A DNA stretch of 64,000 nt, taken from the NCBI GenBank assembly GCA_028283855.1, contig JAPWJX010000001.1:62001-126000 (forward strand), given 5' to 3'. Both the position numbers and the translations under genes were made by a program. This document shows, piece after piece, positions 49,703 to 60,068 of the stretch. Every line of letters starts with the position of its first letter. Positions within the stretch are counted from its first letter, which is position 1. Under the pieces are notes generated by a model. The model saw nothing but the letters and a program-made list of their open reading frames with translations, did not search any database and was not told the DNA's origin. This DNA comes from Verrucomicrobium sp. (GTDB lineage: Bacteria; Verrucomicrobiota; Verrucomicrobiia; Methylacidiphilales; GAS474).

Positions 49703-51081
49703 AAACCCGTCTTGCCGGCCTGTTCCTTTCCCTGTGGCTGGCGGGTTGCGCCGTGGGGCCGGACTACCACCGGCCCACCGTGGACATGCCGCCGGACTGG
49801 GGCTGGAAGATAGCGGAGCCCGCCGACGACCGGATCAAGCCCGACTGGTGGACCTCTTTCGGCGATCCGGTCCTGAACGATTTGGAGACGCGCGCGGGCA
49901 AGGCCAACCAGCAGGTCCTGGCCGCCCTCTCCCGCATCGACGGAGCCCGCGCCACGGCCCGCATCGCCAAGTCGGAGTTCTTCCCCGAGCTGAGCCTGGA
50001 CCCTTCCGCGAAGCGTTACAAAACGCCTCCCACCGTGGTGCCGCAGAATTTCACCGCCAACACCTTCACCGTTCCCCTGGATTTGAGCTATGAGATCGAC
50101 CTCTGGGGGCGGGTCCGTCGTTCCTACGAGGGGGCCCAGGCCCGGGCGCAGGCCAGCGTGGCCGATTACTACAACGTGCTCCTTTCCCTGCGCGGGGAGG
50201 TGGCCATCCAGTATTTTCTCCTGCGGCAAATGGACGCCCAGCAGGAGATCTTTGAGCGTGTCGCCGCCCTGCGGCAAAAGGAGGCCGAGCTGAAGGAGGA
50301 GCGCTTCCGCGGCGGCCTGATCGCCGGCTCCGAGCTGGACCGGGCCCGTACGCAGTGGAAGCTGGCCAAGAGCCAGGCCGTGGAGGCGGCGCGCCAGCGG
50401 GAGGAGCTCCAGAGCGGCTTGGCTCTCCTGTGCGGGGAGGCGGCTCCTTCCTTCCGCATCCCTCCGGCGACCTCCCTCGGCGCTGTGCCCCGGATTCCCG
50501 TGGGGCTGCCCGCTTCCCTTCTGGAGCGGCGGCCGGACGTGGCGCGGGCGGAGCGGAAGATGCAGGCGGCCAATGCCGACATCGGCGTGGCCTACGCCGC
50601 CTATTTCCCCGCCTTGAGCCTGACGGGGGACGCGGGCTATTCCAGCTTCAAGGCGGGCAGCCTGCTGGATTGGGAGAACCGCCTCTTCCAGATCGGGCCC
50701 AGCGCGACGCTGCCCCTGCTCAACGGCGGCCGGATCGCCGCGGGGGTCAGCAGCGCCCGGGCCGCCTACCAGGCCACCTGCGCCGATTACCGGCAGACCG
50801 TCCTGGCCGCGCTGCGGGACGTGACGGACGCGCTGGACGACCTGCACCATTATGAGGAACAGGCCTCCCTCCTGCGCGAAGCGACGACCGATGCCGCGGC
50901 GACGGAGGATCTCTCCCGCCGAAATTTCCAGGGCGGCGTGACGAATTACCTCCAGGTCACGGAGGCGGAGGGCGGGCGCCTGCAGGCCCGGCTGGAAGGG
51001 GTGCGGGCGGAGGCGATGGAGCGCATTGCCTCCGTACGCCTGTTTAAGGCGCTGGGCGGGGGCTTCCAGTCCGGATCTTAA
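49699..51081 (+). CDS. NodT-family outer-membrane efflux lipoprotein
   Basis: 460 residues. Lipobox LAGC (about residues 14-17) predicts a lipidated outer-membrane channel of the TolC/NodT type. Both OEP repeats are present, each with the Glu/Ala-rich helical pattern, and LLERRPDVARAERKMQAANA is the family signature. Completes the four-gene pump. Its stop overlaps the stop of the convergent 98-residue gene by 3 bases, so the pump operon ends exactly where the ankyrin operon ends. Confidence 0.95.
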   Translation: MKTRLAGLFLSLWLAGCAVGPDYHRPTVDMPPDWGWKIAEPADDRIKPDWWTSFGDPVLNDLETRAGKANQQVLAALSRIDGARATARIAKSEFFPELSLDPSAKRYKTPPTVVPQNFTANTFTVPLDLSYEIDLWGRVRRSYEGAQARAQASVADYYNVLLSLRGEVAIQYFLLRQMDAQQEIFERVAALRQKEAELKEERFRGGLIAGSELDRARTQWKLAKSQAVEAARQREELQSGLALLCGEAAPSFRIPPATSLGAVPRIPVGLPASLLERRPDVARAERKMQAANADIGVAYAAYFPALSLTGDAGYSSFKAGSLLDWENRLFQIGPSATLPLLNGGRIAAGVSSARAAYQATCADYRQTVLAALRDVTDALDDLHHYEEQASLLREATTDAAATEDLSRRNFQGGVTNYLQVTEAEGGRLQARLEGVRAEAMERIASVRLFKALGGGFQSGS

Positions 51082-57434: not shown

Positions 57435-60068
57435 TCAGCGCTCGTTCGCCTTTTCCTGGTTTTCGGCCGCCAGGATCATGGCCCGCTCGGCGCGGCGGAA
57501 CTGGGCCTGCTTGGAGGAGGCCGGGACGGCGACGAAGCTCTTGCACGCGCGCATCTTCCCCAGGAGGGCTTCCAGCATCTGGCTGGAGACGTGGGCCGGG
57601 TCTTTTCCGTGGGTGACGTCGATGCGCTGGGTGGGACGGACGGTGCGGACGTTGGCCGCCAGCTTTTCCATGGGGGTGTTTCCCTTGCGGTTGAGGATGG
57701 CCACGTCGGTGGTGACCAGGTCGCACGCGGAAAAGAGGTGCTCGAAGGCGGCTTTGGACGCGGTGTCGTCGTAAATATCCCCGTCGGAGATGATGTGGAG
57801 GTGGGTGAAGCCGGTGACGGCGTCCGGATGGGGCTTCTTGGCCCCCAGGGTGGAGGCGGTCCATTGAAGGGCGGGGGCCAGCGTGGTGCCGCTGGAGAGG
57901 CCCTCCTTGAGTCCGGCGAAGGTCTTGCCGATGGTGAGATGGTCGTCCCCCGGCTTGGCGATGAGGAAGGGCTGGGGCGGACCCCAAATGCCGACGTAGG
58001 TGTCGATGCCGGAGCCCTTGTTCCCGCGGTTGAGGAGGCGCGTGGCCTCGTAGAAAATAATGGCGGTTTGGAGGGCCCGCTCCTCCGGCGTGGGGAGCTT
58101 GCCTTCTTCCCCCCAGGACCAGGAGCGCATGCTGCCGGAGCCGTCGATGAGGATGACGGCGTCGATGCTGGAGGGCTTGAACTTTTCGTGGTCGGCGCGG
58201 AATAGGTGGTAGTCCCGCAGCTGGACGTTGCCGGAGAGCTTTTTCTCGCCCAGCTGGTCCCAGGCCTTGGGCAGAAAGCGTTCGAAGTCCCCGTCGGCGG
58301 GGAGGAGCGTGCGCTGGCGGGAGGGAGCCTGGATGCTTTGCAGCTGTTTTTCCTGGATCTGCTTCAGCTGTTGGGCGACGAAACGGATGGGCCCCGCCAG
58401 GCGGGCGACTTCGGCGGCGTAATCCTCCCAGCTGCCCACGGGCAGCTCGTCGATGCCGGGGCCGGCGCTCATGGACTGGGCGCTGGTGGCGCGGAGATCC
58501 TGCGCCTGCTTTTCCCGTTCCTCCCGGGCCCGGTCCTCCGCCTTGGCTTGTTTTTGCCCTTCTTCGATTAGTTCGCGGAGGGTCTTCTCCTCGTCCGCCT
58601 CCTGCTTCGGGCCGGACTGGTCTTTATCTTCTCCCGGCGCGGTTTCCGCGTTTTCCTGGTCGGGCGTGCGGGGCGGGAGCTGGGGGCTGGGCTGCTGGCC
58701 GGCGCCTTCGACTTCGAGGGTTTCGCCTCCTTCCTCCTCTTCCCCCATGCCGCCGGAGCCGGAGTCTTGCTCCTCCCCGCCGCCGCCGCGGCCTTGGCCC
58801 TGGGAGTTTTGCTGTTCCTGGGACGGGTTCTGTTGAAGCTTCTTTTCGATCTCCTCCTCCTTGGCGTCGAGGAGTTCCTGGGCGAAGGGGGCGGCGTAGT
58901 CGTCCCAGATGCGGTCGATGATTTCGTTGCGCCGGCGGCAAAGATCCAGCGTTTTGGCGGCGTAGTAGTCCTGGCCGTAGCCCCGTTCCCACACGCGCAA
59001 TTGGAGGTCGGGCTGGAGGGAGGCCAGGGTGTGCAGCCGCTCGGCCAGTTCACGGTAGGGCGGGACTGCGGAAGGGCCCGCACCGGGGCGGGTGATGCGG
59101 TCCACCTCCACGCCGCTTTGCGTCCAGCCCTCCCGGGTGTCCTGGAACAGCCCGTTGCGGGAGAAAAAGGCCATGTTTACGGCGTGGCCCAGGTTGGCCA
59201 GATCCCCTTTGGGGCCGGTCGGGAAGGCTTCGGCCTTTTGCGAGATGAGGAGTGTCTCGATGTAGTTGAGGGAGGTGCCGTAGTGCTGGGAGACGCCGTC
59301 GAGCCGTTCCCCTTGGATGGCGGCGTAGCGGTTGACGCAGTTGTCCTCCGCGGGATTGGTGATCCCGTGGCGGAGTTTCCATTCGGTGTCGGCCAGGCGC
59401 AGTTCCTTGTACTCGTCCTGGGTCAGGGGGCGGGTCTTGCCGGTTTTCTTGAGCGCGGCCATCTTTTCCCGCAGGGCGGTCATGGCCGGGGGGAATTCCT
59501 TGCTCAGCAGGCTGTGGGCGATCTCATGGACGACGATGGAGCGGCTGTGCTCGAAGCCGAAGATGAGGGTGTTGAGGAAATCGATGTTGATCCGCTTTTC
59601 TTCGGGCAGGAAGCAGTACCAGCTCCCCGGCGGCCCCCAGCCGAGCCGGACGGAATCGTTCACGAGGTCCAGCAGGAGGCTGGCGCTTTGGATTTTCTCG
59701 AAATTGGCGCGCGGGGACTGGATGGCCTGCTTCCAAAGCGGGCTTTCTTTGAGGGTAGGGGCCCGGCGGTTTTCCGGCCACGCCTGCATGGCGTCCGGCT
59801 GCTGCTGAAGGTGGCTGAAGAGGGCGCCCCAGGCCAGGGCATTGGCGGGGGAATTGAGGTCGGGCGGGATGTCTACCTGGCCGTTTTGCAGGGCGTTCTG
59901 GATGTTTCCCAGTTCCGGCAGGTTTTCGCCGCCGGGCAGCTCCTTCTCCAGCCGGAGCAGAAAATTGGCGAGGAACTCCCTTGAAACCTGCTTGGTCTTG
60001 AACGCGTTAAAGAGATCGGAACGCAGGCGCGTCAGCGGCTCGGCACGGATCTCTTCCAGGGGCTTCAT
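57435..60068 (-). CDS. HExxH metallopeptidase-like and VWA domain protein heading the operon
   Basis: 877 residues from ATG 60068; the frame is open further upstream, but this ATG sits behind the 14-base element and the extra part is basic antisense-like sequence. Residues about 110-400: a predicted zinc-peptidase domain with SIVVHEIAHSLL (His181, Glu182, His185) and NPAEDNCVNR (Glu241 possible third ligand), as in CobT/NorD-like VWA proteins. Residues 405-530: acidic, Gln/Gly-rich disordered linker. Residues 630-800: VWA domain with a complete MIDAS, IDGSGS (Asp642, Ser644, Ser646), SSGTTLAPAL and ISDGD. Cytosolic. A VWA protein with a MoxR-like ATPase in one operon is a known functional pairing. 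Confidence 0.85.
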   Translation of the reverse strand: MKPLEEIRAEPLTRLRSDLFNAFKTKQVSREFLANFLLRLEKELPGGENLPELGNIQNALQNGQVDIPPDLNSPANALAWGALFSHLQQQPDAMQAWPENRRAPTLKESPLWKQAIQSPRANFEKIQSASLLLDLVNDSVRLGWGPPGSWYCFLPEEKRINIDFLNTLIFGFEHSRSIVVHEIAHSLLSKEFPPAMTALREKMAALKKTGKTRPLTQDEYKELRLADTEWKLRHGITNPAEDNCVNRYAAIQGERLDGVSQHYGTSLNYIETLLISQKAEAFPTGPKGDLANLGHAVNMAFFSRNGLFQDTREGWTQSGVEVDRITRPGAGPSAVPPYRELAERLHTLASLQPDLQLRVWERGYGQDYYAAKTLDLCRRRNEIIDRIWDDYAAPFAQELLDAKEEEIEKKLQQNPSQEQQNSQGQGRGGGGEEQDSGSGGMGEEEEGGETLEVEGAGQQPSPQLPPRTPDQENAETAPGEDKDQSGPKQEADEEKTLRELIEEGQKQAKAEDRAREEREKQAQDLRATSAQSMSAGPGIDELPVGSWEDYAAEVARLAGPIRFVAQQLKQIQEKQLQSIQAPSRQRTLLPADGDFERFLPKAWDQLGEKKLSGNVQLRDYHLFRADHEKFKPSSIDAVILIDGSGSMRSWSWGEEGKLPTPEERALQTAIIFYEATRLLNRGNKGSGIDTYVGIWGPPQPFLIAKPGDDHLTIGKTFAGLKEGLSSGTTLAPALQWTASTLGAKKPHPDAVTGFTHLHIISDGDIYDDTASKAAFEHLFSACDLVTTDVAILNRKGNTPMEKLAANVRTVRPTQRIDVTHGKDPAHVSSQMLEALLGKMRACKSFVAVPASSKQAQFRRAERAMILAAENQEKANER

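Follow-up and report, generated by a model that had tools for sequence, protein, structure and literature searches.

The 64,000-nucleotide stretch of Verrucomicrobium sp. DNA analysed here (the window; GenBank assembly GCA_028283855.1, contig JAPWJX010000001.1, positions 62,001 to 126,000 of the forward strand) contains a cluster of minus-strand genes that encodes, among others, a protein combining a HExxH motif with a von Willebrand factor A (VWA) domain (VWA-zincin), four ankyrin proteins, and an AAA-type ATPase (AAA). Our favoured reading, held tentatively and with nearly even confidence, is that VWA-zincin and AAA are a strongly diverged VWA-metallopeptidase/AAA remodelling pair that shares a genome-specific regulon with ankyrin arrays. 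In support of this reading, a Walker A motif, a complete metal-ion-dependent adhesion site (MIDAS), and an HExxH motif are present, and all three segments score above shuffled controls. An ATPase/VWA pair, as proposed in an earlier annotation of this DNA (the sequence-only reading), is the natural reading.

The VWA-zincin gene (57435..60068, minus strand; 877 residues) is supported by its open reading frame (ORF), codon usage, and motifs. Its N-terminal domain contains the HExxH motif (H181, E182, and H185), followed by NPAED at residues 238–242; a low-complexity, acidic/Gln linker spans residues of about 410–540; and the C-terminal VWA domain has a complete MIDAS, comprising D642, S644, S646, T728 or T729, and D762. 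None of 1000 shuffles reaches the observed score of the HExxH segment, and 2 of 1000 reach that of the MIDAS segment. The HExxH and MIDAS motifs of this protein, which the sequence-only reading had described as HExxH+VWA, are present. The HExxH domain is predicted to be catalytic.

The AAA gene (51379..53889, minus strand; 836 residues) is identified by a Walker A motif and candidate further motifs. Specifically, Walker A (GPPGMGKS) is located at residues 92–99, and its score against an AAA-partner profile is equalled by 0 of 1000 shuffles; a candidate Walker B (PFIGEE, residues 234–239) was assigned by eye; and a candidate sensor (LTGN) is located at residues 290–293. The C-terminal half of the protein contains a weak barstar-like segment (GKNLDALW; residues 636–712), with an E-value of 0.003 for the whole protein and 0.0009 for the fragment, below the curated cut-off. 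The window AAA is absent from the AAA_3 matches of its own genome. As a separate observation, that genome has no strong MoxR (AAA_3) gene, and both same-genus genomes have one (E about 1e-63); this could be a real loss or a gap in the 95.6% complete assembly.

Neither protein has a family match above cut-off in Pfam, NCBIfam, PADLOC, or PHROGs. Against the PDB, VWA-zincin gives no match and AAA gives weak local matches only. One VWA-zincin gene and one AAA gene were detected in the own genome. Relatives of AAA were found neither in 98 close relatives nor in 388 genomes of the phylum (weak matches in the phylum search, the best with an E-value of 7e-4 over 60 residues, were treated as chance), and relatives of VWA-zincin were found neither in the 98 close relatives nor in 384 genomes of the class. 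Searches of plasmids and phages likewise returned no relative of either protein, and nor did pattern scans run on IMG/VR and on a collection of 85,000 species genomes; the pattern scans require 7–8 identical residues, so that distant relatives could escape them. The scans were steered onto the catalytic motifs by artificial decoy rows in alignments A2 and A3, and no conservation claim makes use of such rows. The apparent orphan status of AAA and VWA-zincin thus means that no relative was detected within this reach.

The four ankyrin genes between them, all on the minus strand, encode paralogue A (56385..57296; 303 residues), paralogue B (55606..56388; 260 residues), paralogue C (54713..55609; about 296–298 residues, with the start at an ATG at 55603 or at 55609), and paralogue D (53914..54708; 264 residues). 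Pfam Ank_2 is above cut-off in all four (E about 1e-11 to 1e-17), in agreement with their description in the sequence-only reading as ankyrin-like paralogues. They share a C-terminal module that is present in 14 full copies in the own genome, distributed over four tandem arrays: the window array and arrays at C3:1270324-1272268, C3:593321-595090, and C3:562853-565447. Nine columns of the module are invariant across the 14 paralogues, and 383 other genomes of the class give chance-level matches only. In a tree of the paralogues, the L052 and L053 arrays each form one clade (supports 100/100 and 97/92), and the L051 array groups with that of the window (88/90); the array-specific clades fit tandem duplication in place, as expected. 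The 37-residue ORF between VWA-zincin and paralogue A (57306..57419, minus strand) reads like an ankyrin head, MGLLNFPSESP, joined to a tail, AFRTAAR, and carries the F..A.R columns that are invariant in the 14 paralogues. The ORF is present as had been claimed, but it was not called as coding by the gene caller, and it resembles a collapsed ankyrin paralogue, probably the remnant of a fifth member.

The cluster is tied to the rest of the genome by a shared upstream motif. The starting clue, a 42-base match that links the leader of AAA to a different contig, led to the promoter-like motif AAATAGCCGAATTA. This motif is located on the minus strand at 60081..60094, 12 nt upstream of the VWA-zincin ATG, and at 53906..53919, 16 nt upstream of the AAA ATG. 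In 550 kb of the own genome (the window together with sampled stretches, amounting to about one fifth of the total), the form TAGCCGAATTA is found 18 times versus 0.01 expected. This count was made in the same data in which the motif was discovered, and 400 kb of additional stretches provide its one new sample. TAGCCGAATTA is found 0 times in the DNA sampled from seven relatives, among it 232 kb from same-genus G002 and 105 kb from G001. Extrapolation gives roughly 115 motif sites genome-wide. Among the 9-mers that lie upstream of genes called in the own genome by our in-house gene caller, the core, TAGCCGAAT, ranks first. Sites lie mostly 5–17 nt before the ATG, with a commonest gap of 6, and an AT-rich patch is present about 22 bases upstream of them. 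Because the motif lies just before the ATG and is accompanied by this patch, we infer that it may be a promoter with very short leaders.

In the L051 array, each of the three ankyrin genes is preceded by the motif. The L052 and L053 arrays have it in degenerate form before their first genes: L052 keeps the core TAGCCGAAT exactly, and L053 departs from it by one mismatch. The window array, downstream of the VWA-zincin gene, lacks a separate motif. The motif also stands before about 20 other genes in the 550 kb, including genes for adenosine deaminase, NAD synthase, ChaN-like proteins, HExxH families, and many small orphans. Motif genes are enriched in tandem families: 6 of 20 non-ankyrin motif genes have a tandem paralogue within 6 kb, versus 12 of 428 (p 5e-5). 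Because one element precedes VWA-zincin, AAA, the lead genes of the other arrays, and many tandem families, the VWA-zincin and AAA genes, the ankyrin arrays, and the other tandem lineage-specific families are probably switched on together, as one regulon.

Several individual loci are of note. At L158:2878-6945 (G000:C3, about 62.9–66.9 kb), there are three tandem orphan paralogues; the two that were translated carry HExxH (HEGIH and HEAVH), have no Pfam match above cut-off, and are each preceded by the motif. L158:14361-15961 contains four small orphan proteins (125–133 residues) in tandem, with the motif before the first. At L054:13658-15999 and L054:7688-9799 (G000:C4), the motif precedes both adenosine deaminases of a tandem pair and also an NAD synthase whose C-terminal extension is rich in Pro and Lys; it likewise precedes each of the two ChaN/Tiki-type paralogues at L159:238-2518. 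The L052 ankyrin array is flanked by paralogues resembling hexapeptide/left-handed beta-helix repeats (L052:9343-10257 and L052:13886-14587), and a motif-bearing protein at L159:19324-19998 has a sub-threshold hexapeptide match. Within the window, a 131-residue orphan gene at 852–1247 has an exact AAATAGCCGAATTA upstream (1265–1278) together with a Shine-Dalgarno-like GGAGG.

In the favoured reading, VWA-zincin and AAA would be the two halves of an ATP-driven remodelling machine resembling MoxR/VWA pairs. The two proteins are proposed to form a complex in which an AAA ring would exert a pull on its VWA partner. A client would be gripped by the MIDAS, via an acidic residue, and would be either acted on or held by the HExxH domain at the N-terminus. 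The four window ankyrins would be one array of a 14-member binding-protein family encoded at four loci, and the single element AAATAGCCGAATTA would turn on VWA-zincin, AAA, the ankyrin arrays, and the tandem families jointly. The ankyrin proteins might deliver substrates to the machine or might themselves be its clients; co-regulation is consistent with their feeding the machine, and the wide regulon and three stand-alone arrays would be equally consistent with independent roles. It is reasonable that AAA works as a member of a pair of the MoxR/VWA kind, its MoxR identity being a reading of motifs.

A number of observations weigh against this reading. AAA has no AAA_3 or AAA_5 match and scores −5.1 bits against a locally built MoxR profile, which reduces the MoxR-like label of the sequence-only reading to a matter of motifs. 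In the known DUF2201_N (PF13203)–VWA family, the spacing from HExxH to NxAxD is 17 residues in 24 of 24 proteins, versus 52 residues in VWA-zincin, and the match of VWA-zincin to a local DUF2201 profile is confined to the surroundings of HExxH, at 4.2 bits. Single-sequence AlphaFold2 models of AAA and VWA-zincin reach confidence scores (pLDDT) of only 37–40, with 37 for AAA. Some of the genes marked by the motif have no evident tie to a machine (adenosine deaminases, NAD synthase, and ChaN-like proteins), so that co-regulation is no proof of joint function, and the positions of motif sites and their spacing from the ATG depend on the in-house gene caller.

An alternative that we find possible and on balance somewhat doubtful is that the ankyrins are lineage-specific binding proteins that act independently and multiplied in tandem at four loci, and that the AAA/VWA pair works without them. 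The window array would then have arisen by insertion or local duplication and have nothing but the regulon in common with the pair, and the ankyrins might, for example, be delivered to other cells in an interaction with a host or neighbour. Gene calls around the three non-window ankyrin arrays give housekeeping genes and neither an AAA nor a VWA gene. These surroundings, the growth of arrays in place seen in the tree, and the many unrelated tandem families in the regulon all favour such independence, as do the Arg-richer C-termini of motif genes, ankyrins included (p 7e-5). However, 4-base overlaps connect paralogue A with B and B with C, and the array comes after the VWA-zincin gene without its own motif; for these reasons the window ankyrins are probably translated from the VWA-zincin transcript. 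As regards delivery, no signal for secretion was recognised, secretion-system genes not having been searched for, and a sorting tail common to the C-termini of motif genes is only weakly supported (p 0.007).

The opposite view, that the ankyrins are interchangeable recognition subunits docking by their C-terminal module, with one machine serving all 14 in trans in its extended form, is in our estimation improbable. It would account for a single AAA gene and a single VWA-zincin gene facing 14 diversified ankyrin genes, for the conservation of the module, and for the same upstream motif at all four loci. The sharing of the module, on which the sequence-only reading had based its proposal of a common dock, holds; its role as a dock does not follow, because the module is a trait of the whole 14-member family, three arrays of which have no AAA or VWA gene nearby, and it is therefore not evidence for docking. 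Moreover, the regulon is far wider than ankyrins plus machine, and the 37-residue remnant suggests ordinary gain and loss within an array. The shared upstream motif does support a functional link between ankyrins and machine, though not docking. A related and more ambitious proposal, that a factor acting at AAATAGCCGAATTA governs a dedicated regulon of tandemly amplified, lineage-specific proteins, within which a single orphan ATPase/VWA-metalloprotease machine would process or deploy a repertoire of 14 ankyrin adaptors, possibly along with further regulon members, also strikes us as unlikely. We consider very improbable the conflict or defence role that had been raised for the cluster, taken here as that of a MoxR-vWA ternary system with the ankyrins as its third component. 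Such systems are known, including in Verrucomicrobia (PMC7159879, Kaur et al. 2020), and the barstar-like segment of AAA would fit with one; yet no STAND, FtsH, beta-propeller, caspase, nuclease, or other effector domain was recognised in the cluster, PADLOC gives only a generic ankyrin model for one ankyrin protein (E 0.0015) and no other defence-family match, and the motif-sharing genes resemble metabolic enzymes and orphans rather than defence genes.

The layout of the locus is as the sequence-only reading described it: eight co-directional minus-strand ORFs are all present, in the order VWA-zincin, 37-residue ORF, four ankyrin genes, AAA, and a gene for a 98-residue protein with no family assigned (51078..51374; supported by ORF and codon usage), with intergenic gaps of +15, +9, −4, −4, +4, +24, and +4. 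A codon-usage gene caller trained on the window kept seven of the eight as coding, all except the 37-residue ORF, and the third-position guanine-plus-cytosine content of the cluster genes (0.77–0.88) is in or near the range of the other window genes (mean 0.87). Because AAATAGCCGAATTA precedes both the VWA-zincin ATG and the AAA ATG, the AAA and 98-residue genes may form their own transcription unit. A consensus scan found no sigma-70-type promoter, and an Rfam scan of the cluster matched no family. One flank is an unrelated efflux cluster, comprising FUSC, HlyD, and then a gene at 49699–51081 that by inspection looks like an outer-membrane efflux lipoprotein; the other flank is a divergent rubrerythrin-VIT1 gene. 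The rubrerythrin-VIT gene is conserved in relatives, but its left neighbour differs in every one, and the comparison therefore provides no clean empty site.

If AAA and VWA-zincin truly form a machine, they would represent a branch of ATPase/VWA remodelling systems beyond all profiles searched, with a built-in metallopeptidase domain. The upstream motif recasts an isolated, odd operon as part of a wider gene network that had not been seen before, testable as such and comprising the machine, four ankyrin loci, and many tandem orphan families. The motif, its transcription starts, and its binding factor offer a handle on how this bacterium builds and controls a lineage-specific protein repertoire.

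The searches here found no described system of the same composition, in line with the sequence-only reading, which had not recognised the gene combination. Comparison of local MoxR and DUF2201 profiles by hhalign and hmmsearch gave matches at the Walker A, MIDAS, and HExxH motifs only. The DUF2201_N–VWA family is present in 39 of 388 phylum genomes, with an AAA ORF in the flank of 29 of 30 loci examined, and has no PF13203 match in the own genome. Like VWA-zincin, its members have a HExxH domain N-terminal to VWA, N-x-A-x-D after HExxH, and an AAA gene nearby, a parallel that counts in favour of the remodelling-pair reading; unlike them, VWA-zincin is about twice as long, has a low-complexity linker, and is separated from AAA by ankyrin genes. 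The MoxR AAA+/VWA chaperone pairs (NorQ-NorD, RavA-ViaA, and CbbQ-CbbO) combine an ATPase with a VWA protein having a complete MIDAS, as here, where the complete-MIDAS partner is encoded near AAA on the same strand, with the ankyrin genes between. In particular, NorD comprises an N-terminal domain, a linker, and a VWA domain with MIDAS DxSxS-T-D (PMC13036017), an architecture, complete MIDAS included, that VWA-zincin shares. The hallmark of the MoxR clade is a beta-hairpin insert in helix 2 (PMC7159879, PMC13036017). In contrast to the chaperone pairs, the VWA partner here carries a HExxH domain, AAA fails the MoxR profile, and no reductase, rubisco, or chelatase genes adjoin the cluster as a known client operon.

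The MoxR-vWA ternary conflict systems, like the cluster, combine an ATPase, a VWA protein, and a third type of component, which in those systems is VMAP, iSTAND, FtsH, or a beta-propeller (PMC7159879) and here is an ankyrin array. STAND, FtsH, and propeller Pfam domains are absent from the cluster genes, VMAP not having been searched by its own profile. Host-associated bacteria have ankyrin-repeat families with multiple diversified paralogues in one genome, and the present genome resembles them in this respect; what distinguishes its family is a specific C-terminal module together with a genome-specific upstream motif.

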